From NCBI GenBank assembly GCA_012845835.1, contig JABAKD010000007.1:10870665-10934664 (forward strand): 64,000 nt of DNA. Direction: 5' to 3'. Shown here piece by piece: positions 1 to 53,440 of the stretch. Position numbers and translations under genes: made by a program. Within the stretch, counting starts at the first letter, position 1; each line of letters opens with the position of its first letter. The notes under the pieces are model-generated. The model was given only the letters and a program-made list of their open reading frames with translations. It was not told where the DNA came from and made no database searches. This DNA comes from Undaria pinnatifida (taxonomy: Eukaryota; Sar; Phaeophyceae; Laminariales; Alariaceae).

Positions 1-109
1 ATAGCCTGAAGACAAAGAGTCAAACCTCATAACCTCAAAAATATGAAGAACTATCGAGGAGCGGTGGCGGCTTGAAAGTCAAATGACCACGGCCGCGCCT
101 GGAGCTTTG

Positions 110-1350
110 TCTACGTTACGTTGGATTCCCCGAGGAAACGCACTGATGTGAACTTGCAGGCACCAAGAGCCTCGTACGGCACCCGTCGAAGTAGTGTAGA
201 GCGCCGGCGGAAGAGAAATTTTAATCGGTCACGGGTCGTTAAGAAAACGGACCAGGTATACCTTGTCCTCGATAGTGCTAGCGCTGATTTTTCCAAGCCA
301 CCATAACCCATGGTCTCTCTTGTACCAAAAGTGGGCTCCCTTAAGAAGCACTGTGTCGTGGTAGCGACGAGGCCAATCGGCGCGTGGAACACGGGCGTAG
401 CCCGACGCTAGGAAACGTTCCCCGTCGTTGCGGGAGAGCTCGCGCTGTGCCGCCCCGATCCGCACTCGGCAGTAGAGGAGGTTGGTTTGGCGGTGCTCGT
501 CCGGGGTTCCGGCCCAATGACGCAAGATGTGGGAGCGGGACAGATGGAGGTCCATTTCCCGCTCCCAGGAGGGTTCGGAGAGTCCCGCCCAATGCGTCTT
601 GTATAACACCGCGATGACGCCACCTCACCGCCATACGGAGTAATGACCGGTGATCTGCTCCACCTCCAACCGTTGGAGGGGAGTTGAAACGTCGTCTTGA
701 GTGACGTGGTACGGTGGGAACTTCTTGGAAAAGTTGTTGAGCATGTACTGGGTCAGCCCCGCCGGTAGGTATTTGGGCATATCCCCGCTGTCGTGGGGGT
801 TGGCGCAGGGATTGCAGCGCTCGATGGCCACACGCCGACGAGCGTCCGAACCGGGCAGGTCGGAAGAGAGATCCAAATAGAGAAGGTTGCCCCCGAGCGG
901 CGAACCGTCCGGGGTCTCGGCCGCGGAGCAGAGGCCGACTGCCAGGATCTTGTACGGGCCCGTCCAGGTTAGCGCGAGTTTGGCCTTGAGTACCTCGGCG
1001 TCGGTGTTCGCCTTCACACTCTGGCGGATGGAAGAGGCATATTTGTACACCCATGCCATATCACCCGTAGCGAAGTTGAGTGGTGGATGCAGCGCGTCGA
1101 CGGGGGCGGAGTTTCTGCGGTAAACATGAGAAACGGTGAGCGTGCGTGGTGTGCGCGGACAACGCCGTTCGCGCGCTTTTGCCGGTCGGTGGCCAACTCG
1201 CAATAAGCCAGGTGGTGGCGAGCTAGACTCTGGTGTCCCACGATGTCAGTGCGGTCGAAAACCGTCAGGGGGAGCCGTGGGAGTCTGCCCATGTTGATCT
1301 TGTTGGGTGCCAGACCCGTCACCGCGCTGACTAAATTGTTGTAAGCGTCG
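110..1350 (-). pseudogene. Integrase C-terminal region of element A
   Basis: This is the end of the pol polyprotein, in several frames. A proline/leucine-rich stretch at about 1000-830 reads GPYKILAVGLCSAAETPDG and then YLDLSSDLPG, a small beta-barrel-like segment common after gypsy integrase cores. The region near 620-300 reads THWAGLSEPSWEREMDLHL and FWYKRDHGLWWLGKISAS, resembling the tandem chromo/Tudor-like C-terminal domains of such polyproteins. At least three frame changes (near 1110, 630 and 250) break it. It ends in a frame reading RGIQRNVDK near 130. In a working element this part would help bind chromatin or DNA ends. No intact start or stop remains. Confidence 0.75.
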
Positions 1351-1760
1351 TGGGGCAGATGCAAGTCCCAATCGTCTTGTCGCTCGTTGACGACCATAGC
1401 CAGCATTTAGGCCATAGCGTGGTTTACCCGTTCAACGCCTCCGTTACAGGTGGGATGATAGGAACTTGTAGCAAGCTTGTGCACACCCAACAGCTGACAT
1501 ACAGCTTGTGAAAGCTTGGAGCAGAACTGCAGTCTGTTGTCCGAGAGTATGGTGCGCGGGCACCCCCCAAGCGGATGTATTGGTTCACCAGGATATTGGC
1601 TGTACCCTCCGCGGTGAACTCAGCGGCGATGACGGGGAACATGTCGGCCCGACTACTAAAGCGATCGATGAACAGCAGGATGTAGATATTGCCTCGTGGT
1701 GTGACCGGAAGGGGCCGCAGTAGTCAACACTGATGGCGACACCTTGATCTTCGGGTAAAG
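1350..1760 (-). pseudogene. Integrase catalytic core (D,D-35-E) of element A
   Basis: All three acidic residues of a retroviral-type integrase can be located. The first Asp is in VAISVDYCGPF (codon near 1722), the second in ILSDNRLQFC (near 1540) and the Glu in CNGGVERVNH (near 1432). The spacing of about 36 residues between the second Asp and the Glu fits the D,D-35-E family, although frame changes near 1700 and 1560 and a stop near 1408 interrupt the frame. Downstream, NERQDDWDLHLPHDAYNN and GLAPNKINMGRLPRLPL match the usual segment after the catalytic Glu. The enzyme would insert element cDNA into the genome. It is inactive here. Confidence 0.88.
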
Positions 1761-1764
1761 GCAT

Positions 1765-2230
1765 TTAGATGATGGACCAGCACACAGTCAGCCGTGGGGT
1801 TTTCCGAGCTTGGCACTTCAAGCAGTGGCGAAGCCACCACCGGGTGCACACGTTCATGCCAATCCACCAATATAACCGCTCCAGCATGCGCAACGTGCGC
1901 GTGGTGCCAAGGTGACAAGAGGCCGTCGAGTGACAAGCTTGCATGATCCGAGGGCCCATGAGAAGGGGATCGTAGATGCGAACTGGCTCGTCGTTTAGCA
2001 AGCAAGCAGCTCGCCCCACAGAGTTGGGTTTGCAAGACCTTGTTTACGGCAGTGTCGGGTTACGGAGGAGTAGGACGATGTCGTCGTCGGTTGTATGCAG
2101 TCGAGCCTCACCTGCCAGCTCCTTGATGTCTATGAGGGATAACCGCTTGTAGGAGGGGTACCACGCAAAACGTCGGGCGGCAGGACCGATGGCCGGCCGA
2201 TAGAGACGTAACGCACCATGGCGTGGCACG
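1765..2230 (-). pseudogene. Integrase N-terminal zinc finger (HHCC) of element A
   Basis: An open frame reads ACHSTASCHLGTTRTLRMLE, then YWWIGM and RWWLRHCLKCQARK. This is the H-x-H ... C-x2-C zinc-binding N-terminal domain of gypsy integrases (integrase_zn/H2C2), with the typical YWW-x-GM signature. Just upstream on the same strand lies SLIDIKELAGEARLHTTDD, the usual lead-in to this domain, in another frame broken by a stop near 2044. The domain normally helps integrase multimerise on the cDNA ends. Confidence 0.88.
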
Positions 2231-2249
2231 TCGGCTCAGCGTGCTGCTC

Positions 2250-3240
2250 TCGCTTCCGTTCGGCGTGTGAAAACCGCGCGACGGAATCAGCGAACCGCAA
2301 TTTAGCAACGTCGCTGAGGGCGTCCGACCTTGTATGTGCAGTCGACGTGTCACCAGGAGAAGGTGTGAGCCGCCAGAGAGGAGTGCCCATATAGGCTCTG
2401 CGTGGTCGCGGTCGGACGGTAGTGGCATCGTGCGGACCGGCGAGTCGGCAAGAGCAGGGGCCGCGGCCGTGGGACTTTTGGCGGGGTTGTACCTCGTCTG
2501 GAAGATGGCCGAGGAGCCCCGCCGGGCCCGAATCCATAATCTACAGCGGAGGTGCATTATCCGTTGCTGTCGCTGTTCGTCGGTGCGTCGTCGACGGCGG
2601 AAGAGGTGGAGTGCCAAGAAAGGCGGAGACGGACACAGTCGAACCGGTGGTCGCGGCGGGGGCCGTCTCCTGTGTTGAACTCCGGGATAGTTAAGGCTGC
2701 TGTGCGATGGGTGACGCTGCAGCCAGGTCTTCTGCGGAGCCCGTGCCGCCCTCGATGGGTATAGCAAAAACAAGGCGAAAACGGTACCAGCGGCAGGCGA
2801 AATCGACCCGCGGCCGGTACAGCCTTCGGTAGTGGCGACGGAGGCAGAAAAACGAACGACGAATGTCCCCGCAGAAGCAGAAAGGCCGTCATTTCTTATA
2901 CGTGGCTCGTGTGTGCCAAAATCATGAAACGCGGTAAAGGTGACAAGGAGCCCACCCAAAACAGCATGTTCAGTGCGGAGCACGAGCCCACCCAAGACAG
3001 TGCTTTCGGCGAGGGGTTCGAGTCCACCGAAAGCCGTGCTTTCGATGTGGGGCACGAGCCCACCCAAAAGAGTGCTTTCGGCCAGGGGCGCGAGTCCACC
3101 CAAACCGACCCCTGGGATCGGCGAGGACGGAGCGCGAAGCCCGCAGGTCCGTAGGAGGTACATACTGCTATCTCCAACGGGGTTGGGGCTTGTTAACCCC
3201 ACGGGATTGAAGTTTGTCAAGCCACTGCGGTCGTACTCCG
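2250..3240 (-). pseudogene. Pol linker between RNase H and integrase with 12-residue repeats
   Basis: This long open stretch on the minus strand joins the RNase H end (FPEPATEYDRSG near 3240) to the integrase. It is rich in Pro, Ala, Ser and Thr. It contains four to five degenerate 12-residue repeats of the type STVLGGLxPxxE, encoded by a 36-bp DNA repeat at about 2945-3110. Low complexity between RNase H and integrase suggests a flexible spacer. It is open for 423 codons (3379-2108), the longest open frame in the window, but it matches no known fold I recognise, and frame changes occur near 2700 and 2230. It should not be annotated as a separate host gene. Confidence 0.6.
2945..3110. repeat. 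36-bp tandem repeat, about 4.5 copies
   Basis: Units begin gagcccacccaa or gagtccaccgaa and are 36 bp apart. Being a multiple of three, the array stays open on both strands: the minus strand gives the LGGL repeats of the pol linker, and the plus strand gives 12-residue EPTQ repeats. The plus-strand reading is treated as a shadow. Confidence 0.85.
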
Positions 3241-3640
3241 TAGCAGGCTCTGGAAAACGGGCCAGCAAAATCGGTGATGCCGTTGGCGCTGCCTTTGCGG
3301 TACTCGAGAGTGCAAACGAACGCAGGGATGAACTCAAGCTACCGCTGGCCTCGTGCCTTGAGGGGCCCCACTTTGCCAATGCTCTCCTGTGTCTTGTGGC
3401 CGGAGGATATGCGGAACTTTATTTCCAACAGTACCCTCGGAGGCGTTTGGGAGCCCAAACATGCTGCCGGTCCCCAAATCTAGAGGAGTCCAGTGCCTCT
3501 CCGAGTCGAGCGTTGCTCGACTGAGATACACGCGATTTTCATAGTGAACAAAACGTCGTCCAGCGTCACAGTACCCTCGACGAAACAGGGGCCGTATTCT
3601 GACAGCGCAAGGTCAGGACCGACGCCAGAAACTATCTCCA
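3240..3640 (-). pseudogene. RNase H domain remnant of element A
   Basis: Three minus-strand frames together give a recognisable gypsy RNase H. YLSRATLDSERHWTPLDL (near 3530) corresponds to the usual SR-x-L-x2-E-x-x-W segment. KFRISSGHKTQESIGKV (near 3410) corresponds to the DH-x2-L segment, with Asp replaced by Gly. LEFIPAFVCTLEYRKGSAN (near 3310) corresponds to the H/EYRPGK-N-x-AD segment. The missing Asp, stops and at least two frame changes mean the enzyme is dead. No YxDD reverse transcriptase motif was found upstream before the NADAR domain. Confidence 0.68.
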
Positions 3641-3799
3641 AACCTCCACGGCTTTTAATTGGCCAACGCGCCCGAGAGATATGTCGGAAACGCCGAAGGG
3701 GAAGCTTTGGGAGCGCTGGCCGATGTTGTCGGCCCGGCCGAGGCGCAGACGAGATCTCTCGGTTCTTGCATTCGCAGTACAGGTGCGGAACTGACTAGG

Positions 3800-4250
3800 G
3801 AAGGCCGGGTGCGCCGACCCGGTCTCATTGTCGCAAATACTTCGCGAACGGCAGAAAGTGCCTCACCGAGCTAGTTTTCCCTCTCTCCTGGCATGGATTG
3901 TTGGCCCTGGGACCATTCGCCCGGAGACCAATGCCCCACACTGGGTCCAGAGCTGGATTCAGGCAGAAGCTTGTTGTCAGAGCTTAAAATGTTATTTCTT
4001 TTATCTGGATTCTGCGTGGATTTGACGTAGGTGCCAGATAACGCGGCTTTTTGCTTCTCCCTGTCCCCAACACCGGAGTCAAAGTTGCGCACGCCTCGAG
4101 CGATGCGTTTGTGTGCGCTGGGACTAAGCAACGACATGATGAGCCCCACTGCTCGATGGTCTTGGAAAGCCTGTTTTTTTCGGCCATCATGTGCTTCTCC
4201 GCGCAAGAATATGGCACGTCGTCCACGGCAAACGACGAAGGGGACAACGG
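3800..4250 (-). pseudogene. NADAR (DUF1768/YbiA-like) domain inside element A
   Basis: Reading 4250 down to 3800, the order of motifs is that of the NADAR family: FAVDDVPYSCAEKHMMAEK (4240-4177, the family's AEK-x-MMA-x-KA signature), GVRNFDSG (4098-4074), a degenerate KFTQNP-like segment STQNPDK (near 4010), DPVWGIGLRANGPRANNP (near 3950-3900, the WGIG signature) and LGEALSAVREVF (3872-3837, the closing helix). Together these cover the usual ~150-residue domain. Frame changes near 4175, 3950 and 3890 break it. NADAR proteins act on ADP-ribose-linked substrates, and some remove ADP-ribose from guanine. The domain lies between gag-like and pol sequence, as in element B. Assignment rests on motif reading; a profile search was not run. 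Confidence 0.78.
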
Positions 4251-4289
4251 TGGAAATAGGATGGGGGCTGCCAGAATAACACCACTTTG

Positions 4290-4985
4290 TCTGTGGACTA
4301 TTCGGGAGAAAGGTCAAAAGCCGTGCTGGAATTTGGGCCAGCAATGTCCCCGTCCGGAAACACCAGGCCTCGGGAGCACGACGCGAATCCGAACCCGTGG
4401 TTTCTCGCCTCGAGTCTTTCTTCGCTCGTTGGCGGAAAAGCGCGATAATCCGAGAAGACTGCGCCTGAAAAACATCTGAAACCGACGGTGCCAGCCCGTC
4501 GGTAGCCTCGTTGGACATTTGTGGGTTTGCAACGTCCCCTCTTGGGAACACCAGCCTTCGGCTCTTTGGGCCTGTAGTGTCCCATTGCGGGAGCACCGGG
4601 CTTCGGGAGCAAGATGCAAGTTCGAACCCGGGGTTTTTCGCCTCGGGTCCTCCTCACTCGCTGGTGGAAACTCGTAAGAAGCCACCCTCGATGCACCCGA
4701 AAGAGCCCAACACCGTCGGTGCCAACCCGTCGGTAGCCTTGTCGGACGTTTGGTTCTGCAACGCCCGCCTGTGGAAACACCAGTCCTCGGCTCTATGGGC
4801 CTGCAGTGCCCCCCTCAGGAACACCAGACCTCGAGAGCACGACGCGAGTCCGAACCCATGACTTCTCGCGTTGTAGCACCTTCGCTCTTTGGCGTATAAT
4901 CGCAAGAAAACTGCTCTAACTGCGCCCGACGGGGCAGGGGCTCTGAGCTATTTTTGCTTGACGAGAGGCGTTATTTTTATTCAAA
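4290..4985. repeat. Three-copy ~230-bp tandem repeat in element A
   Basis: A marker within each unit, gagcacgacgcgaatccgaa and variants, appears near 4373, 4608 and 4835, so the period is 227-235 bp. Read on the minus strand, units contain RVVLPRPGV-like and VQRGYRRxGTVG-like peptides. Element B carries three units at the same relative place, so the array predates the split of the two copies. Confidence 0.85.
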
Positions 4986-4989
4986 TTTC

Positions 4990-6110
4990 CGGGAATAGCG
5001 TCCAACTGATCAGGCTGAAGGCCGTGGCGTCATCACTGGCTCGTCGCGCAATGTCGGATCTTTTTCCTGTGCCACTGGGGCAGACGTAGCCTGAAACAGG
5101 TGGGTTAGCGTGTTAAAAGACGAAGCAGGGTCCGTAGACTTTGTGGGAGTCTGGAGCGGGGCTCGGGCCAGTGGCAATAATGTTTTCCCCCGGGGAGGCT
5201 CTTTTCTGTTATGCTTCTTGGAGAAGATAGACGAGGTAGCAAATCTTGCCGACTCCTCCTTGATGAAAAAAATGACAGAGCACCATCTGTTATCGCGAGC
5301 AAACACCGGATCGAGCCTCGCAAAAGATCTCGGTGTTTTAGTGTTGGCCTTCCAAAACCTCAAACTCGACCGCCACCTTGTGGTCAGAAAACGCGTTTGA
5401 GGGTGTACCGCCCCACACACCTCAAACATACCTCCACCGCCTGGTCAGGGAGAGGGGGGGATGAACACGTTCGCGTAACATAGGCGACGCGCTGTCACCG
5501 CCGCTATATTTTCACGCGATGCGTGCCTGGGTATGAAGCACGCGAAGCGCAGGCTTCCGTGCCATGGTTGATGGGGGCGGCGTTTGGATGGCGTACCCCC
5601 GTTGCCGAGTTCATGCCGCGTTTGAGGTAAACGGCGCTGGAAGCGCGATTTTTGTCGCCGAATTCACACCATGACCGAGGGTAACGTCGCTGGAAGCGCG
5701 CGTTCTCGCCGTCAAAAAAAAAAAAATACCTGGCTGGACGAAACCACGCTCAAAGCGCGAGTTCCCGCCGCCGGTACTACGCCGTTAGAATTGTCCGCAC
5801 ACGGCGTGGGAGCCCGTGGGCGCTTGACAGAGGCAACCTGTGCTGCGTTACAGGACAGGCCAGCGACAGAACACGAGCATCTTCTGACACTAAAAGAGGT
5901 GCCCCCGACAAGTTGTCGACGGTGCCGTACCGCCGTCGAGCTGTCGATTGCCGGTACGGAATGTGCCAGGCTGGCGCGCGTGCAAATTTCCGCCCGGGTT
6001 ATGAGCGACTCCAAAGCGCGTACGAGGAGTAGAATCGTAGCCGTACGCAGAAGGAAGGGGGCAGCATCACCCACACTCGGACTCGTACGTGTGATCCAGT
6101 GTCTGAGAGC
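4990..6110 (-). pseudogene. Gag-like 5' region of element A
   Basis: This 1.1-kb stretch is colinear with element B 49,440-50,500 in opposite orientation. The minus-strand frame at 5429-5010 (139 codons) includes TPRSFARLDPVFARDNRW, ATSSIFSK and EKDPTLRDEPVMTPRPSA. The B counterpart reads TPRTFARLDPVPARDSS and an equivalent DPTLRDGPVMTPRP. A second conserved block near 5930-5720 reads SCNAAQVASVKRPRAPTP here and SCNAAPISSFKSPLAPTP in B. Conservation at protein level in this frame argues for coding on the minus strand, although a plus-strand frame (5671-6156) is also open in both. No CCHC knuckle or capsid motif was recognised; gag is inferred from position. Confidence 0.5.
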
Positions 6111-6149: not shown

Positions 6150-6690
6150 GGAGTAATCAAACAGTAGAACAGCGTAGATATCCGTCACAAAGGATTTCTA
6201 TCCCTCAGCTCTAATTTATTTCCAATCTCCCTAACTGTTGCGGGGAGTATAGTTCAATCCATCATATCGTTTTTTTTTGTGCTACTGTTGTACCCAACAG
6301 CAGCTGCCGCTTAACAGCAGCAAGCAGCCGAAAAAGGCATTGCGGCCGTCAAGCCATCACTGCCCCCACCACCACCTGGTGGTCCACCATCACCCCCATG
6401 GTCGGTACGGCGACCAATTCCGTCTTAAGAGCGGATTACGTGCGGGCAGTGCCGCGTAGTATCTATCTTGGTATGTGCCTGTTCTTGTCCATGCGCTGCG
6501 TCATACCGGCGACCGCCGCCGCCGTCGTCTTCTTCTAAAAAAGAAAGCTGGCATGGTCTGTCTCCGAAACAAAATATTTTAAGCCAAAGAGCATCGATCC
6601 CATCGGGGTTCTGAGATTTATCAAGATTAACCCTGGACTGACCACCTATCACCGAGGCAGACAGATGCGCGACGTGAAACCATACACCTC
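6150..6690. other. Unassigned stretch beside element A
   Basis: The plus strand has a short frame open from 6312 to 6426 with a proline-rich end (PSLPPPPPGGPPSPPW). Its upstream border cttaacag could be a splice acceptor, making it a possible terminal exon. Otherwise nothing was recognised. Confidence 0.25.
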
Positions 6691-6694
6691 TGTC

Positions 6695-6696
6695 GT

Positions 6697-6776
<80 letters not shown>

Positions 6777-7140
6777 GCTGTTGTTGTTGCTGTTGTCGTT
6801 GTTGTTGTTGTTCTTTTATTATCTCGCATTGTCAAGTCCGTGGTCGCAGGACAGGTTGCAGTCACTCTGGAGCTGAGAGGAATACCCCAGAGAAAAAACA
6901 CAAACAAGCGAAAAGTGGTGAACGCATTATATATCACAGCTGACGCAATTCATGCCTCCACCAGAAACATATAAAAGTGAAATCGGGAGTCAGCAGGTCT
7001 ATGCTGGTGCATACGTCTCACTACCCGTGCCTGGAAAAAACCCACTATACCGCTTGCCACCGAAGAAAGACTGCCACGTATATATTGCACATGGTACTTA
7101 TCACTAGGTATTTGCACCAATAGCGCAAGTCAATTGAGAA
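6695..7140 (-). repeat. (GTT)n-tailed repeat, copy 1
   Basis: A ~118-bp GTT microsatellite (6695-6812) is followed by ~300 bp that match 12,366-12,690, including tcactctggagctgag, gacgcaattcatgcctccac, accagaaacatata and taccgcttgccacc. Read on the minus strand, the unique part ends in an (AAC)n tail, like a short retroposed element with a simple-repeat tail. Long poly-Cys or poly-Thr open frames here are artefacts of the microsatellite. Confidence 0.7.
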
Positions 7141-31028: not shown

Positions 31029-31240
31029 TATATGCGCGCTACGGTGTGCACTTTTTAGATATACCGTTTCCTAAACGACTGTGCTACTTAGCCCAAGATC
31101 GTCGCAATTTCAACCTTTTTCGCAGTTGTTTTTGGGAAGTACTCACCTTATGCTCCAAACACGTTTTGGGGAAGGATAAATATACATCGGAACCTCACAA
31201 AAATAACAGGATGAAGTTCTACCGTCGTAGCATGCGTCCT
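31029..31240 (-). mobile_element. Family-1 element, diverged
   Basis: Ends gcgctacggtgtgcac and accgtcgtagcatgcgt enclose ~210 bp with cccaagatcgtcgcaatt and gctccaaacacg blocks typical of the family in minus orientation. It lies just 5' of the cysteine-rich exon at 31,296. Confidence 0.55.
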
Positions 31241-31295
31241 TAACAAACCCTTGCAACTGTTACCGCTTCCTGATTCACACTGCGCGCGATGCCAG

Positions 31296-31503
31296 GGGGC
31301 TCTCTGCAACTCCATCGGCTGCCCGGCCGGCTATACTCCCATCGCCGACGCCCAGTTCGTGGAGTGCGTCGGCACTTGCTTGGAATCGCAGTGCTGCGAG
31401 GCGTTTTGCTCTTATCATGCGTGCCCTGACGGCTACGTCCCCATCCAAGATGCCGGAACGACCATGTGCGAAGACTCAGGATGCACTGACTCCTCGTGCT
31501 GCG
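31296..31503 (+). CDS. Cysteine-rich exon of gene 1 (two CPxxYxPIxDA repeats)
   Basis: After a gatgccag acceptor the frame gives two ~33-residue repeats: LCNSIGCPAGYTPIADAQ ... CLESQCCEAF and CSYHACPDGYVPIQDAGTT ... CTDSSCC. The pattern is C-x4-C-P-x2-Y-x-P-I-x-D-A-x5/6-C-x4-C-x4-CC, so each repeat has six cysteines and probably three disulfides in a secreted protein. The exon ends tgctgcG|gtaagaa, a strong donor in phase 1. The next acceptor with matching phase and coding character is at 34,226 (acidic exon). A paralogous exon at 37,138 has the same borders, phases and ~75% of residues. The frame also stays open past the donor, but that part has no cysteine pattern. The first exon was not found; the function is unknown. 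Confidence 0.7.
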
Positions 31504-31974
31504 GTAAGAAAAAGTTTGTGTCCCCCGCGGATGCGAACCGAATGACCACCATATGGCGGACTCTAGTCAGTTGTTGGCGTCGTAGCACGGCTTGTCGGGG
31601 GCCGCACCTTGGCTTACGCACTGTCAAACTCCCCCCGAACCAATCACGCGGAAGAGGTAAACCCAAGCATGAAGTCGACGCCTTGGATCAACGCGTGTCA
31701 ACAGCACGCCTTTTTTTCTCTGGGCATCGTTAAGAACGTGTGGTTGTTCCCAGCACTCAAACAACGAGATCGTGCAATGCTAACGTCCAATTCCACGCAA
31801 ATCAACGAGGGCAGAAAATGTTGACTTGGTCTGGCGATGAACTCGGAGGCGCGTACCGGGAGCGGGGAGGGGGAAGAAGAACCTGCCTAAGTGACCACCC
31901 CGTGTCCGTCTTACGTCTGGAGAGGCAGAAATGGAAATATAGTATGCGAATATAATGGATGAGATGAGCACAAC

Positions 31975-37137: not shown

Positions 37138-37348
37138 GGTCCTCACTGTAACTCCATCGGCTGCTCAGCGGGATACACTCCGATCGAAGACGCCCAAACA
37201 ACAGTGTGCGATGGCGATACGTGTTCGGAGTCCCAGTGCTGCGAAGCGTTCTGCTCGTACCACGCGTGCCCCGACAACTACACCCCCATCATGGATGCTT
37301 CCATGACATTGTGCAACGACTCCGGCTGTACCGACGCCTTGTGCTGCG
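37138..37348 (+). CDS. Cysteine-rich exon of gene 2 (paralogue of gene 1)
   Basis: The acceptor cacgatag overlaps an in-frame stop, which fixes the start at 37,138 in phase 0. The frame gives HCNSIGCSAGYTPIEDAQ ... CSESQCCEAF and CSYHACPDNYTPIMDASMT ... CTDALCC, two six-cysteine repeats with the same spacing as gene 1. The exon ends tgctgcG|gtgagaa in phase 1 and joins the acceptor at 38,894 in matching phase. Gene 1 and gene 2 lie 5.8 kb apart in the same orientation, consistent with tandem duplication. The protein is probably secreted, given the paired cysteines. The function is unknown, and the first exon was not identified. Confidence 0.7.
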
Positions 37349-37609
37349 GTGAGAAAAACGTCTTTCAGGAGATCGCTTGGCCAAGAAGTTGTATACCTCT
37401 ATCGTGTAGCACGTGTCACACTTCGCAGCCCACTCTTGTTTTGAGGACAAACCTATGTCGACAACAAAGTAAAGAGCAATATTATGTTTCCGATTGTAGG
37501 AGACAATTTGCAACTTGTTTAGCCCCTCAACAGCAGCGTTCTTGGAAATTCAGCATACCAAGGATAGGCTAGAGAGGCGGTCATTTTTGGCGTTTTTTTT
37601 TTTCGCATG

Positions 37610-48139: not shown

Positions 48140-49350
48140 CACTGTTGAATATGGTGGCGTCCCTCCTCAGCAATTACTGCGAGGCCGAAGAGATACTCCG
48201 CGAAGAACAGCGTGGCGTTCGCTCGCCCCGCGCCGTCAACATCGGAAAACATGCTGTTCGACGTGCGTCGACGGCAAGGACTCCGAGGAGCTAGGAGAAT
48301 CCCTCGGTACGCGTGCTTGATCGACGTCAGAGATATTATGACTCCCTGGACCTAGAACTGCTCTGAGTGGCGCTCGTACGCTTCGGTGTGTACAAGAGAG
48401 GATAGTCGTTGCTTCGGTGTGTACGGATGTCGGTGAGGACTCTGAATGGTCTGACGTCACTCAGAGATTGCGCCAAACATAGATGAATATCGCGACCTCT
48501 CTTTTCCAATGTCATTTTCGTTGACTGCGGTACAGTCTGCTTTGGCAGGCTTCAGTGAGGACACAGATATTCTAAGGTGCCTTTTTCATGTCGAGGAAGA
48601 CCTCGGGACACACGGGGTAAAGATTGAGCATATACCAGGTGCACGGATGAGAGCTTGGGGTATGGTGTACGCTGACGATGCGTGCAATGCGTCAAAGTCG
48701 GCGGAAGGCCTTGCGATGGTGATGACCGTAATTGTGACCGTAATTGTGACCGTTGTAGAAGTAACAGGCCTCACCGTATCCCAAACGAAAACAGAGAACA
48801 CGCTGCTGCGGACGCATAACCAGGCACTCCAGACCTCACCGCTCGTTGTCGAGGCAGCGGGCTAGAGATATACGCAGACAATGCCGTTTTGAAACTGGGC
48901 GGTTTTGCCGACTCCGGCGCCGACATTATGCCAGAAACCATACGACGTGTCCGGCTCGAATGCGCAAGCTATAATCGTTTCAAACAGGAGCTGTATGACA
49001 GAGAAGATTCCCCGTTCACTATGAAGTTGCGCCAGCTAACGGCCGAGGTGATAGGGATCCTGCTGTACAGGTGCGTGACTTGGAAACTAGGCCAGAAATA
49101 CTGAGCTGAGCTCAAAACTGTATTCCGCAACCTTTTCTTTCTTACCATTTGTTTCCAGTGCCGACAACGCACCGACCACCAAATGTCGTACGCCAAGGCT
49201 CTCAAGAACGCGTGATGTGAGAGCATTGAGACGACTAGGATATCCGCAAACGATGCCTCCTCCTTGCGGGAGCCGTACAACGGACGACCAATGAGCGGAT
49301 GACCAATCAGGTGGTATTCGGGACGACGCTGGGGTGGACATCGAACTGCT
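48140..49350 (+). pseudogene. LINE-type reverse transcriptase fragment 2
   Basis: The same family as the 12.8-kb fragment, seen in shifting plus-strand frames. In order: LSNYCEAEEILREEQRGVRS (48,157), ACLIDVRD (48,320), a GEDSEWSDV-type segment (48,440), WGMVYADDACNASKSAEGL (48,655-48,712, catalytic YADD intact), GLTVSQTKTEN (48,768), IMPETIRRVRLECASYNRF (48,928), KLRQLTAEVIGILLYRCVTW (49,024), CRQRTDHQMSYAKALKN (49,160) and IRKRCLLLAGAVQRTTNERM (49,240). The QGCVLSP-type motif between them is lost, and there are several stops and frameshifts. It ends against element B. A duplicated cgtaattgtgacc word at 48,727-48,752 gives a small in-frame insertion. Confidence 0.85.
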
Positions 49351-49439
49351 GGCCACTATGAGAGCAACACTATGCAGAAGGTTTCGCCGTTCTAGTCTCT
49401 CGTTTTAGACCGACGACTCTCCCCTTTGGAGCGGCAGCG

Positions 49440-50500
49440 TTTCACCCTCCACTCGCGTCGATGTCCTTCGAGAAAACCAGTGGCTTTGCCTCAACTTCTC
49501 CCCAGAAGAAAACGACCCCTTCAAGCACATTCCGTACCGGCAATGGACATTTCGACGGCTGTACGGCACACCCGGCCTGTCCGTCGACGACACTGCTGGC
49601 GACACCTCTTTTGGTTTTCGAAGGTTCTCGTGTACCTGTTGCCAAGCCGTCCTGTAATGCAGCACCAATTTCTTCTTTCAAGAGCCCACTGGCTCCGACG
49701 CCGTCTTTTGACAATTCCCACGGGGTAGAACCGGCGGCGGGACCTAGCACTTCGAGCGTGGTTCCCCTCAGCCAAGTAATTGTTTCTACGGCGAGAACGC
49801 GCATATCGGTACGTTCTCCGCGGTCATGGTCTGAGTTCGGCGATGGCAACCTGCGCTTCCAGCGCCGTTCCCTTCATCGTCGGCATTAACTCGGTAACGG
49901 GGGTCCGCGCTACGAACGCCGCCCTCATCCACCATGTCACGGGAGCTTGCGCATTGCGCGCTCCCCCTAGGCACGCATCGCGCAGCAAAATAGCTGAGGT
50001 GACGGCGCGCCACCTATTTAGTCGAAATCTTGTTCACCCCCTCGTATCCCTAACCATGCTGTGGCGGTCGGTTAGAGGTGTGGGACGGCCGACCCTCAAA
50101 CACATTTTGTTTACCACGAGGTGGCGGTCGTTTTGACATTTCGCAAGGCCGACACTGAGACACCGAGAACTTTTGCGAGACTTGATCCGGTGCCTGCTCG
50201 CGATAGCAGCGAGCGCTCTGTGCTTTTTTCCGTCAAGGAGGAGTCGACAAGATTAGCTACCTCGTCTCCCTTCTCCAAGATACCTAACGGAAAAGAGCCT
50301 TTCGGGTAAAACTTTTACTGCCACGTGCCCGCGCCCCGCTCCAGATGACGCCCACAGGGTCAATGGGCCCTGCTTCATCTTCCAGCACGCTAACCCACGC
50401 GCGTCTGGCTACGTCTGTCCCAGTGGTATCGGAAGAAGATCCGACGCTGCGCGACGGGCCAGTGATGACGCCGCGGCCTCTGTCCTGATCAGCTCGACGC
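49440..50500 (+). pseudogene. Gag-like region of element B
   Basis: Colinear with element A 6110-4990. Plus-strand frames read SCNAAPISSFKSPLAPTP and GPSTSSVVPLSQV (near 49,655-49,775) and TPRTFARLDPVPARDSS with FSVKEESTRLATSSPFSK (50,155-50,280). Equivalents exist in A with mostly conservative changes, which favours plus-strand coding. A stop follows at 50,308 and the frame is broken again near 50,340. No CCHC knuckle was seen. An opposite-strand frame (49,849-49,442) is also open and similar between copies, but it is probably a mirror of the conserved gag codons. Confidence 0.45.
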
Positions 50501-51185
50501 TATTTCGGACATTTTACGGAGGAATCGTGCCTCTCGTCAAGCAGAAAGGACTCAGAGCCCCTGTCTCTTCGGGTGCAGGTAGACCAATTTTTTGCGATGT
50601 TGCGCCAAAGAGCGAAGAGGCCCCGACGCAAGAACCCGTGGGTCCGGACTCGCGTCGTGCTCCCAAGGCCTGGTGTTCCTGAGAGAGACACCACAGGCCC
50701 AATTTACCGAGGACTGGTGATCCCAGAGGGGGACATTGCAGACAAAAATGTCCAACGGGGCTACCGACGGTTTGGCACCGTCGGTGTTGGACTCCTTTTG
50801 GGGTGCTTCTTACGAATTTCCGCCGGCGGGTGAGGAGGATCCGAGGCGGAAAACCGCGGGTTCGGACTCGCATCATGTTCCAGAGGCATGGTGTTCCCGC
50901 AAGGGGACACTACATGCCCAAACAGTAGAGGACTGGTGTTCCCAGAAGGGGATATTGCCGTCCAACGAGGCTACCGACGGGTTGGCACCGTCGATTTTTG
51001 ATCAATTTTCGGGCGCAGTTTGAGCGGATTCTTGCGTTTTCCGCCAGCGAGCAAAGACGACACGTGGCGAGAAACCCCGTGTGCGGATTCGCTTCGTGCT
51101 CCCGAGGCCTGCTGTTCCCGCGAGAGGACACCACATGCCCAACGTGAGGAGGAATGGTGTTCCCGGACGCGGACATTGCAAACCC
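50500..51185. repeat. Three-copy ~218-bp tandem repeat in element B
   Basis: The marker tccggactcgcgtcgtgctc and its variants lie near 50,643, 50,861 and 51,081. Units share ctaccgacggtttggcaccg and gttcccagaaggggatattg-type blocks with element A. Confidence 0.85.
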
Positions 51186-51197
51186 ACATTCCATCAC

Positions 51198-51443
51198 GAC
51201 GCATGCTACGATAGAGGTGCACCACGATATTTCCGATCTTCCTAAATTTGAGAGCTTAAAACCTCTCCCAAAGACTGATTTGGAGAAAAATAAACGTCGA
51301 CTGGATGAAACATGCGTAGGCGGAGGTACCCACAAAACGTCGTGCGAAGCATATCAGCGTATTTATGACGATTTCCGGTTAGGCAGCACCGTCCTTCAGA
51401 AACAAATCACACGAAAAGTGATACCTCTATCGTAGCATGCGTC
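51198..51443 (+). mobile_element. Family-1 inverted-repeat element, full length, inserted in element B
   Basis: The termini are perfect inverted repeats for at least 20 bp (ACGCATGCTACGATAGAGGT). The element is 246 bp and has no coding capacity. Element A has the empty site (in B orientation, ttccagcacggctttt against ttccatcac-[element]-acacggctttt), so it inserted after the copies split. It is a MITE-like non-autonomous DNA transposon; the mobilising transposase is not in the window. Confidence 0.88.
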
Positions 51444-51529
51444 ACACGGCTTTTGAACCTTCTCTCAAATACTCCACAGACACAATGCTGTTGTTCTGGC
51501 AGCCCCCATCCAATTTGTCACCATTGTCC

Positions 51530-51915
51530 CCTTCGTCGTTTGTCGTTGACGACGTGTCACATTGTTGCGCGGAGCAGTATGTGATGGCCGAAAAGTCCAG
51601 TCGTTTTCAAGACCATCGAGCAGTGGAGCTCATCATGCCGTCGCCTGACCCAATCACACACCAACGCATTGGTCAAGGCGTACGCAACTTTGATTCCATT
51701 GTTGGGAACAGGAAAAGGCAAATCGCCGTGATATCTGGCGCCTACGCCATACTTACGTAGAATCCAGCCATGAAAAGGACCTCAGGAGCTCTGGCAACAA
51801 GCGTCTGGCTGAAGGCAGTCCTCTAGAGCCAGTGTGGGGCATTGGTGCCAGATGGTCCTACGGCCAACAACCCATACCAGTGGCGAGGAAAACGTTAGAG
51901 GGGAGCCGTGCGAGG
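51530..51915 (+). pseudogene. NADAR (DUF1768/YbiA-like) domain inside element B
   Basis: From 51,437 the frame reads SSFVVDDVSHCCAEQYVMAE (the AE-x-MMA-x-K signature with one change), FQDHRAVELIM, HQRIGQGVRNFDSIVG and then stops at 51,760. The match continues in other frames as NPAMKR (51,761), KRLAEGSPLEPVWGIGAR (51,805-51,858) and PTANNPYQWRGK (51,863-51,897). These are the successive blocks of NADAR: helix with AEK/MMAEK, R-x-V-x-NFD, NP-x-L/MK, L-x-E-x-SP-x-D-x-xWGIG and W-x-GKN. The closing helix is replaced by the deletion junction. Protein similarity to the element A copy across frameshifts shows both derive from a coding ancestor. The original likely acted on ADP-ribose conjugates; this copy is broken. 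Confidence 0.78.
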
Positions 51916-52050
51916 CTCTCAGAGCCAGCAAATTCAAATCACCAGCGCCTTTACTCGGGGCATCCAACGCAACGTAGATAAATCTCGAAAGGCGGCCGTG
52001 GCCAGTTGACTTTCAAGCACCGCGGCTCCTCGATTGTTTTCCATATGTTT
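51915..52050 (+). other. Deletion junction and pol 3' end of element B
   Basis: Sequence before about 51,915 aligns with element A near 3850, and sequence after (gccagcaaattcaaatcacc, catccaacgcaacgtagat, cgtggccagttgactttcaa) aligns with A near 175-60. The junction therefore removes ~3.7 kb relative to A. Confidence 0.75.
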
Positions 52051-52830
52051 CTATATTATGGGGTTTGGAGGGTCTGCCTTTGGGTTGTTCGCGGTGTTTC
52101 GAGCGTTTTTGATTGGATGTGGAGTGGTTCTAAAACTTTTTTCTTAGTCTTGCCCTCCCCTCCCTCCCCGGTCTGTGCCGGGCCAGGTTCCGGGTGTTCA
52201 CGCCGCTTTCTGAGGCGCAGGACTGCCGGGTTTTCGTTTTGTTCAGATTTTCCCTACCGACGTCCTCCTCAGCCCAGAGCGGGAAATCGACCAGGTTACC
52301 CTGTTCGCGCATAACGTGGTACAGGGCTATATATGGGACTGTTTTATCGATTTCCTCATGTGTTATATTTGTTCTACTTGTTTCGGCTAAACACTCCTCC
52401 CCCTCGCGGGGTTCTAGGTGATGTCACCTTCCACTCCGGGTGAATGTCGTTTCCTCATCCAACTCTCGCCATGCCAATGGTCAGCGGGAGTTTTTAGGGA
52501 AGCCATCTCCCTTGTACTAGCGCCTGAGTTCCTGTTTCTTCGACAAAGGTTTGCCTTGTCATAGTGCATTTTCTGTTGTTTGTTCGCCGTGGAGCATTTT
52601 TTATCACCTTTCCCCTCCCCTGCCACACCGGCGGTACGTCAGAGGTTTTATGGGCGGTCTTTCTTGTTGCAGGGTCTGCTTTTCCATCAAATACTTTTCT
52701 TCGCGTTATCGTGTCTCCAGAGGAAGGTCATTAGAGGTGTGTGAGTGGGTTTTGAATAGTGGCATCTTCGACTCATAGTCTAGCTCGTAGAACCGGAGTT
52801 TCCCCGAATCTCCAACATTTCTGCATATGC
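52050..52830 (+). repeat. Probable 3' LTR or terminal region of element B
   Basis: Starts after a G-rich atggggtttggaggg (polypurine-tract-like), contains ggctatatatggg and T-rich segments, and is non-coding. A plausible end is gaatctccaacat near 52,820. It cannot be confirmed because no partner LTR is in view. Confidence 0.4.
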
Positions 52831-52834
52831 GGCT

Positions 52835-53440
52835 CATCAGGGGGGGCTAGTGTTAGAGTACGGCGGTGAACGGTCTGCAATTATCTGATTTAATAGGTAA
52901 TTTACTACTCTTGTATGATAGGTTGGTGAAAAATATTCGGGGTAGCCAGTAAATGAAACCGAGGTATGCGCCTCGGTTCTCCGCTGCTATCCCGGACTCT
53001 GTGGAAGTAATAAAGCTGCTTCTCTACTACGGCTAAGATAGTTGAGTACTCACAAAGGACCTGTCCAATAGACAGACCTGCAGGGGACACTCTGTGTCCG
53101 CACGTCAATGGCTTAAGACCATGTACGTTCTCGTCATTTGAAACGCCATCACGCGTTGAGGAGGAGCACGGGCTCAAACTTAGGGTATTGTAGGTAGATG
53201 CTGAGCGGGCATAGCGGGTTGCTGCTGTTGCCGTGGAACATAGTACCCAAACTGTCAGTCTTGTTCTTGTGGTCTGACTATAACGACGGTGGAAATCTGC
53301 CCCAATGTCCTCTAATGCAACCGTGCTTCTGCCTTGAACGAATTAATTTAAGTGGTCGAGGAAGATCGGATGTTTGAGTGATGCTCGCCTGGAGCTAAAC
53401 GTGCTCGTCCACGACGATAATATATACCAGGTATAAATAT
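52835..53440. other. No recognised feature
   Basis: Nothing recognised. Confidence 0.3.

Follow-up and report, generated by a model that had tools for sequence, protein, structure and literature searches.

A 64,000-nt stretch of the Undaria pinnatifida genome (contig JABAKD010000007.1, 10,870,665 to 10,934,664 of the forward strand, assembly GCA_012845835.1; 49.9% GC), here called the window, contains two broken copies of one Ty3/gypsy retrotransposon lineage, elements A and B, and both carry a NADAR domain. The Pfam NADAR profile (PF08719; 163 positions, curated cut-off 35.1 bits) was run on three window frames. The element B frame at 51422-51760 (+) matches profile positions 2-97 with 40.4 bits (E 4.8e-10), above the cut-off; the element A frame at 4653-3871 (-) matches positions 48-124 with 30.8 bits (E 4.2e-7), under it; the second element A frame scanned, 4313-3984, gave no PF08719 match. 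In tblastn, the NADAR taken from a copy of the family whose frame is unbroken matches 51473-51892 of element B at 55.6% identity and also 4297-3817 of element A. The latter alignment spreads over three frames, so the NADAR of element A is frameshifted; in element B the profile match stops at 51760, inside the domain, where the open frame also stops. The first-pass annotation had claimed a NADAR domain in two copies of a Ty3/gypsy-type element, both broken, and is borne out on each point. Chance similarity is ruled out by the Pfam E-values and by full-length matches across the genome. The parts of the two elements are listed below in window positions, except where a contig is named.

88..6060, minus strand: element A, a decayed Ty3/gypsy copy with its reverse transcriptase (RT) deleted, traced by tblastn pieces of an unbroken copy; it runs past the left window edge
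5947..6060, minus strand: gag end of element A (tblastn, gagC residues 463-500, 61% identity)
4521..5858, minus strand: Pro/Ser-rich linker 5′ of NADAR in element A, with internal repeats (tblastn, preNADAR piece)
3817..4297, minus strand: frameshifted NADAR of element A (PF08719; tblastn pieces 4297-4253, 4265-3873 and 4185-3817)
3267..3641, minus strand: protease remnant of element A fused to the RT/RNase H end (tblastn, protease region at 3641-3522; residues 303-390 of the 400-residue RT/RNase H piece at 3528-3267)
88..2786, minus strand: element A from beyond RNase H to integrase and the pol C-terminus (tblastn pieces, 47-90% identity, several frames)
C56:10869586-10869853, outside the window: 3′ long terminal repeat (LTR) of element A
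49329..53103, plus strand: element B, decayed, with protease, RT, RNase H and integrase deleted (tblastn and blastn pieces)
49329..49495, plus strand: gag remnant of element B (tblastn, gagC)
49554..51196, plus strand: linker 5′ of NADAR in element B (tblastn, preNADAR pieces)
51473..51892, plus strand: NADAR of element B, with the frame stop at 51760 inside it (PF08719; tblastn)
51902..52006, plus strand: last 35 pol residues of element B (tblastn, IN_C residues 491-525)
52846..53103, plus strand: 3′ LTR of element B (blastn, 73% identity to the 274-bp LTR of the C18 copy described below)

Element A keeps the linker, NADAR, the RNase H end and the integrase, and its RT core is gone; an additional weak tblastn piece lies at 3199-2390 (35% identity). 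In element B, the gag remnant, linker and NADAR are followed by a direct jump to the end of pol, a 3′ untranslated stretch and the LTR; the deletion covers protease through most of integrase (NADAR similarity ends at 51892 and pol resumes at 51902). Only the 3′ LTR was seen for each window copy. The proposed placing of NADAR between gag and pol holds for element A and for the full-length element, but not for element B, which is almost without pol. The linker 5′ of NADAR (window 4300-4900 and 50500-51200) shows repeats of a few hundred bases with a recurring TGTLQAQ-like peptide.

The domain is not confined to the window. A search of the genome (511,146,479 bases in 68 contigs) gave 1,454 first-look NADAR candidates; all 150 that were scored exceed the NADAR cut-off, which rules out a feature of these two elements alone. 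Of these 150 matches, 22 sit in open frames 2,000 amino acids (aa) or longer: in a first family (F1) nine frames of 2,473 aa and seven of 2,113-2,451 aa, and in a second family (F2) five of 2,371 aa and one of 2,304 aa. Eight fetched F1 copies differ from one another by 0 to 3 positions across 750 bases around NADAR. The reference for the anatomy of F1 is a copy on C18 (minus strand), which was read piecewise and spans about 15.7 kb. It is a recent insertion, because the two 274-bp LTRs differ at only 1 position (99.6% identical). Between its 5′ LTR and gag is a tandem array with a unit length of about 84 bp (L010:7662 to L011:1314).

The order of parts is LTR, gag with a CCHC knuckle, an in-frame TGA, linker, NADAR, protease motif, RT, RNase H and integrase. 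The F1 gag is a frame of 1,019 aa with the knuckle; the TGA follows, and the same frame continues for 2,473 aa, comprising a linker of 407 aa, NADAR at residues of about 408-557 and then a DTGS motif. The NADAR of the C18 copy scores 177.1 bits (E 4.4e-52) with PF08719. Farther along pol come RT (RVT_1, 1.2e-27), RT_RNaseH and Integrase_H2C2 (1.8e-12), in that order, together with a weak rve match (E 0.0098) and a weak chromodomain (E 0.12); the Pfam scan of the F1 gag, linker and protease pieces gave no match. A host gene adjoining the element is ruled out, as one open frame holds NADAR, the protease motif, RT and integrase. In F2 the parts follow in the same sequence, again with a TGA in frame, and rve is just over its cut-off; no LTR was found within the stretch read around the F2 copy. 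The gag pattern C..C....H....C and the DTGS motif occur in both families. In two further NADAR families, F3 (L043, L049) and F4 (L044), the element protease region again comes after the domain, so that four such families exist in one genome, F1 and F2 in long open frames and F3 and F4 in shorter ones. Intact members, which the first-pass annotation suggested seeking, thus exist genome-wide, with NADAR within the Ty3/gypsy pol frame.

A single TGA splits gag and pol in one frame at L010:4345-4347 (minus strand) and, in F2, at C22:20735283-20735285. The stop stands at the same place in seven of eight copies, six of them with the exact string and L007 with one base changed in its context; the eighth, L001, has a different sequence at the site. 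The junction looks like a kept stop-codon readthrough and not a frameshift, because F1 and F2, with gags only 38% alike, both have the TGA in the same frame.

Element A evidently belongs to a subfamily that multiplied after losing RT, because five other loci share its jump and are closely alike, and element A is 88.4% identical to one of them, L060, over 2.8 kb (window 2706-5501). In L060, L061, L062, L064 and L065 similarity to the protease piece breaks off at about residue 91-129 and is followed directly by the RT/RNase H piece from residue 301-311; four of the five are 96-98% identical to one another, and L065 is about 91.5% identical. The subfamily retains most of the NADAR frame, with the final NADAR residues shifted to another frame, and its enzymes are presumably supplied by full copies.

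Selection on the domain was assessed between families. Over 150 codons, NADAR of F1 and of F3 (L043, in a shorter frame) differ by 65.6 synonymous and 64.4 nonsynonymous changes, giving a ratio of nonsynonymous to synonymous rates (dN/dS) of 0.147, well below 1, as the first-pass annotation had proposed to check. Between F1 and F2 synonymous sites are saturated (proportion of synonymous differences 0.762 in NADAR and 0.779 in RT), which leaves no ratio; the proportion of nonsynonymous differences in NADAR is 0.374, and the integrase gives a dN/dS of 0.136. Within F1, 15 copies compared with L002 range from 0.19 to 1.01, values based on small counts that include decay after insertion. Amino-acid identity between F1 and F2 is 78.5% in RT/RNase H, 60-65% in the integrase part, 50-53% in the protease region, 48.7% in NADAR and 38% in the C-terminal half of gag; the linker and the N-terminal half of gag show no blastp similarity at E 1e-3. 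Judged by these comparisons, NADAR is under purifying selection, with a constraint weaker than that on RT.

A search with the RT piece gave 3,881 candidates, of which 104 matches were scored; the 4 kb lying 5′ of each, in the same orientation, were checked for a NADAR. A listed NADAR match was present at 70 of the 104; 20 of the remaining 34 were fetched and 14 were not, so that 90 of 104 were examined in total. Ten of the fetched loci have a diverged or broken NADAR and ten have none. In nine of the latter, element similarity starts only 3′ of NADAR, inside the protease region (at the NADAR end in L168), and the tenth, L164, retains an LTR stretch only. None of the ten has a gag match of more than 80 bases within the 3.5 kb read. 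In L152 and L153 the LTR is joined almost directly to the middle of the protease region by a near-identical junction, gag and NADAR being gone; in L163, where both are also gone, the LTR lies 160 bp from the protease region. No copy that keeps gag and pol and has lost NADAR alone was seen among the 90 matches examined, because the ten NADAR-less copies also lost what stands 5′ of it. Genome copies consistently free of the domain, the outcome that would have spoken against its belonging to the element, were not seen; it is built into the pol frame genome-wide.

These data bear on whether NADAR could be a chance passenger that the element no longer needs. The RT-deleted copies multiplied with their last NADAR residues out of frame, as a passenger would allow. 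Yet the F1-F3 ratio of 0.147, the uninterrupted NADAR in the long pol frames of two families and the loss of the part 5′ of NADAR from all ten NADAR-less copies make this reading highly improbable.

The active site was compared over 48 NADAR loci, namely the first eight fetched and 40 picked by hand for diversity and few stops; this is not a random sample, and decayed copies are included. Residues were mapped by alignment to the ADP-ribose-bound Phytophthora nicotianae NADAR structure 8BAU, a guanine-ADP-ribose hydrolase, whose numbering is used. E43, K50 and E125 or their equivalents are named as mechanistic residues in the account of this enzyme by Schuller et al. (PMC11543638). The E43 equivalent is Glu in 41 of 48 loci (Lys in 3, outside the match in 4), that of K50 is Lys in 45 (Asn, Met and outside the match in 1 each), and that of E125 is Glu in 47 (Lys in 1). 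ADP-ribose contacts are kept as well: D130 and R79 in 48/48, W89 in 47/48, W133 and K75 in 46/48; Y84 is replaced by Phe in all 48. In the alignment the element NADAR keeps the catalytic Glu-Lys-Glu, and its active site looks competent. Glu at the third catalytic position, in place of Asp or His, is that of the YbiA subfamily, and by this residue the element domain classes as a YbiA-type NADAR. P0001, an ENA protein with 91% identity across 86% of the query, was modelled by AlphaFold2 with a mean pLDDT of 75.3; 107 of its 250 residues reach at least 90. For this model Foldseek found only 8BAU (1.9e-10) and YbiA 2B3W (4.7e-6) under 0.001; the superposition is loose, with root-mean-square deviations of 7.7 and 5.4, respectively.

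The position of NADAR next to gag and 5′ of protease, and its greater divergence between F1 and F2 (48.7% identity, against 78.5% for RT), could point to a part that binds nucleic acid or protein, serving packaging, particle architecture or contact with chromatin or poly(ADP-ribose) polymerase, with any hydrolase activity incidental. The three catalytic positions are nevertheless conserved even when decayed copies are counted (41, 45 and 47 of 48 loci), and a purely binding role is distinctly unlikely.

The closest relatives of the F1 NADAR are ENA proteins with up to 91% identity. Among relatives with a name, the best come from Pylaiella, Ectocarpus and Scytosiphon, as stand-alone proteins (56-61%), and from Nannocystis bacteria (59-61%); phage NADARs are more distant, all 678 records retrieved being below 60%. 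A stand-alone NADAR gene is also present in the host, found with a query from the N-terminal region of the Pylaiella protein (E 1e-6), along with three weak matches (E 0.07-0.25):

C20:5683400-5686330: host NADAR gene, with detected exons ending at 5683742, at 5685637-5685885 and restarting at 5686164, with GT/AG junctions

This gene has three detected coding exons, is 61% identical to the F1 NADAR, shares its leader and catalytic residues, and has an extra N-terminal Cys-rich segment that is not in the element; the corresponding segment of the Pylaiella and Ectocarpus relatives gave no Pfam match. Trees were built from eight element NADARs and 51 proteins picked by hand from 240 listed (59 rows), and from 61 rows with the C20 gene; their bootstrap had not settled. 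The C20 gene falls in one group with its stand-alone counterparts from other algae (support 91/95, 61 rows), and these genes are sister to F1/F3 (90/99 in the 61-row tree; 98/95 in the 59-row tree, without the C20 gene). The NADAR of this main clade likely derives from such a host gene by capture, or else the two descend from a common brown-algal ancestor. The element NADAR has no intron at either of the two intron sites of the C20 gene; this fits capture from spliced RNA and, equally well, capture at a time before the introns existed.

Direct acquisition from bacteria by horizontal transfer, once or repeatedly, with the algal genes derived from the element or acquired separately, is a less probable origin, though one to be taken seriously. 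Nannocystis NADARs are as close to F1 as the algal genes are (about 60% identity) and share the leader 5′ of the domain. Moreover, F2, F4 and the 75-residue NADAR fused to RT in the Ectocarpus protein P0124 are placed with bacterial rows and away from F1, which counts against a host source for all families. The approximately unbiased test does not reject placing F1/F3 and F2 in a single clade (p 0.082; 0.147 with the algal genes added), and the tree placement suggests a separate capture for F2. Bacterial origin is opposed by a clade that unites F1/F3 with the algal genes and contains none of the bacterial rows used (98/95 and 90/99, the 90 being under 95) and by a host gene that has introns and the extra Cys-rich part. 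Horizontal acquisition is raised in the discussion of NADAR by Dinatale et al. (PMC12477816), where a blastp search without Ectocarpus gave almost only bacteria; excluding Ectocarpus may have concealed the algal genes.

As for function, tested NADARs remove ADP-ribose from guanine, in DNA (PMC11543638, PMC11125620) or in RNA (PMC11833690), but not from phosphate ends; phage NADARs have been proposed as a shield against host transferases. The element NADAR would be made within a gag-pol fusion by readthrough of the TGA and then packaged; the element protease would free it in the particle, where it could strip ADP-ribose from guanines of the element RNA genome or complementary DNA (cDNA), so that reverse transcription would be unblocked despite host or environmental ADP-ribosyltransferases. 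The best explanation of the whole, a brown-algal Ty3/gypsy lineage with a host-related NADAR in pol that removes ADP-ribose from guanines of its own RNA or cDNA, is put at about an even chance. Its most specific form, in which a host guanine-de-ADP-ribosylase gene was taken by the retrotransposon and is carried in the particle to erase marks on its own RNA or cDNA as a counter-defence, is tentative and rather doubtful.

Several observations weigh against this proposed role. DarT (PF14487) has no match in the host genome; this six-frame search can miss split genes, and its control rang in 1 of 14 genomes. The literal DarT version of the role has no support in this genome, though NADARs act on guanine marks of other transferases too. 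No transferase was recognised by eye, with no profile search, beside four of the nearest bacterial NADARs (L071, L074 and L075 of Nannocystis and L077 of a Polyangia metagenome-assembled genome; 4 of 79 loci). D86 of 8BAU is not kept, being Ala in 20 and Gln in 16 of 48 loci, and R93 is Lys in 29 or Arg in 19. A further point concerns the substrate, which could be another one, since E. coli YbiA is stated in PMC11543638 to act also on riboflavin intermediates. The search for Tox-ART-HYD1 (PF15633) gave no host match and is uninformative, its control being silent as well; no transferase family is among the Pfam matches of the element pieces.

The riboflavin activity and the catalytic glutamate of the YbiA subfamily would both suit an enzyme of nucleotide-pool or metabolite damage control, cleaving N-glycosidic bonds of reactive intermediates in the particle by a logic like that of dUTPase. 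A pol-embedded enzyme is indeed the arrangement of dUTPase in some retroviruses. However, tested YbiA-family members act on guanine-ADP-ribose too, and we know of no reason for a retroelement to need riboflavin damage control; this role is unlikely.

Among the papers listed on NADAR, DUF1768 or YbiA in retroelements, judged by titles, PMC12477816 alone was relevant, and it overturns the statement of the first-pass annotation that no retrotransposon with such a module was described. In its account of Ectocarpus Gypsy elements, Dinatale et al. (2025) report that all families of one of four lineages bear NADAR. Members of the Ectocarpus sp. 7 lineage, such as Gypsy-12_Ec32, are described there with the same putative chromodomain at the integrase C-terminus, which is weak in the kelp element. 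The Ectocarpus predicted proteins P0124-P0126 are 71-72% identical over the 400-aa RT piece, and P0124 holds both NADAR and RT. The kelp elements belong with this NADAR-bearing Gypsy kind, Gypsy-12_Ec32 being compared by description. They differ from the Ectocarpus lineage in the kelp host, the four NADAR families in one genome, the multiplied RT-deleted subfamily and the likely algal gene source. What is new here is the second host, that likely source for the main clade, the selection test and the finding that no examined copy lacks NADAR alone.

Other known NADARs are set up differently. The stand-alone brown-algal proteins (Pylaiella P0053, Ectocarpus P0075 and P0108, Scytosiphon P0099 and the C20 gene) form the sister group and are cellular, whereas the kelp domain, unlike that of 8BAU, is embedded in pol. 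The DarT1-NADAR and YarT-YbiA toxin-antitoxin pairs described in PMC11543638 and PMC11125620 belong to the same superfamily, the YarT-YbiA antitoxin being a myxobacterial YbiA-type protein; the kelp element differs from the DarT1-NADAR pairs in having no partner transferase, in the element or in the host, among the matches given above. The ORF1 NADAR of a Tx1 LINE of Crassostrea gigas, mentioned in PMC12477816, is also a retrotransposon NADAR, but a non-LTR one.

A conserved eraser of ADP-ribose would mark guanine ADP-ribosylation as a threat to the nucleic acid of a eukaryotic retroelement. To our knowledge, an additional enzyme is rarely retained in pol by retroelements; where one is, as with dUTPase, it reveals the chemical threat that matters to their nucleic acid. 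If a host gene does serve here as a counter-defence, a barrier of nucleic-acid ADP-ribosylation against mobile elements in eukaryotes is implied. The many near-identical unbroken copies, with a host counterpart in the same genome, make biochemistry on the lone domain directly feasible.

Two other features of the window lie outside the elements. A long TTG trinucleotide repeat at 6690-6810 adjoins element A, and two alike Cys-rich repeat frames (CNSIGC-AGYTPI-DAQ...), possibly pieces of host genes, are found at 31215-31545 and 37138-37350.
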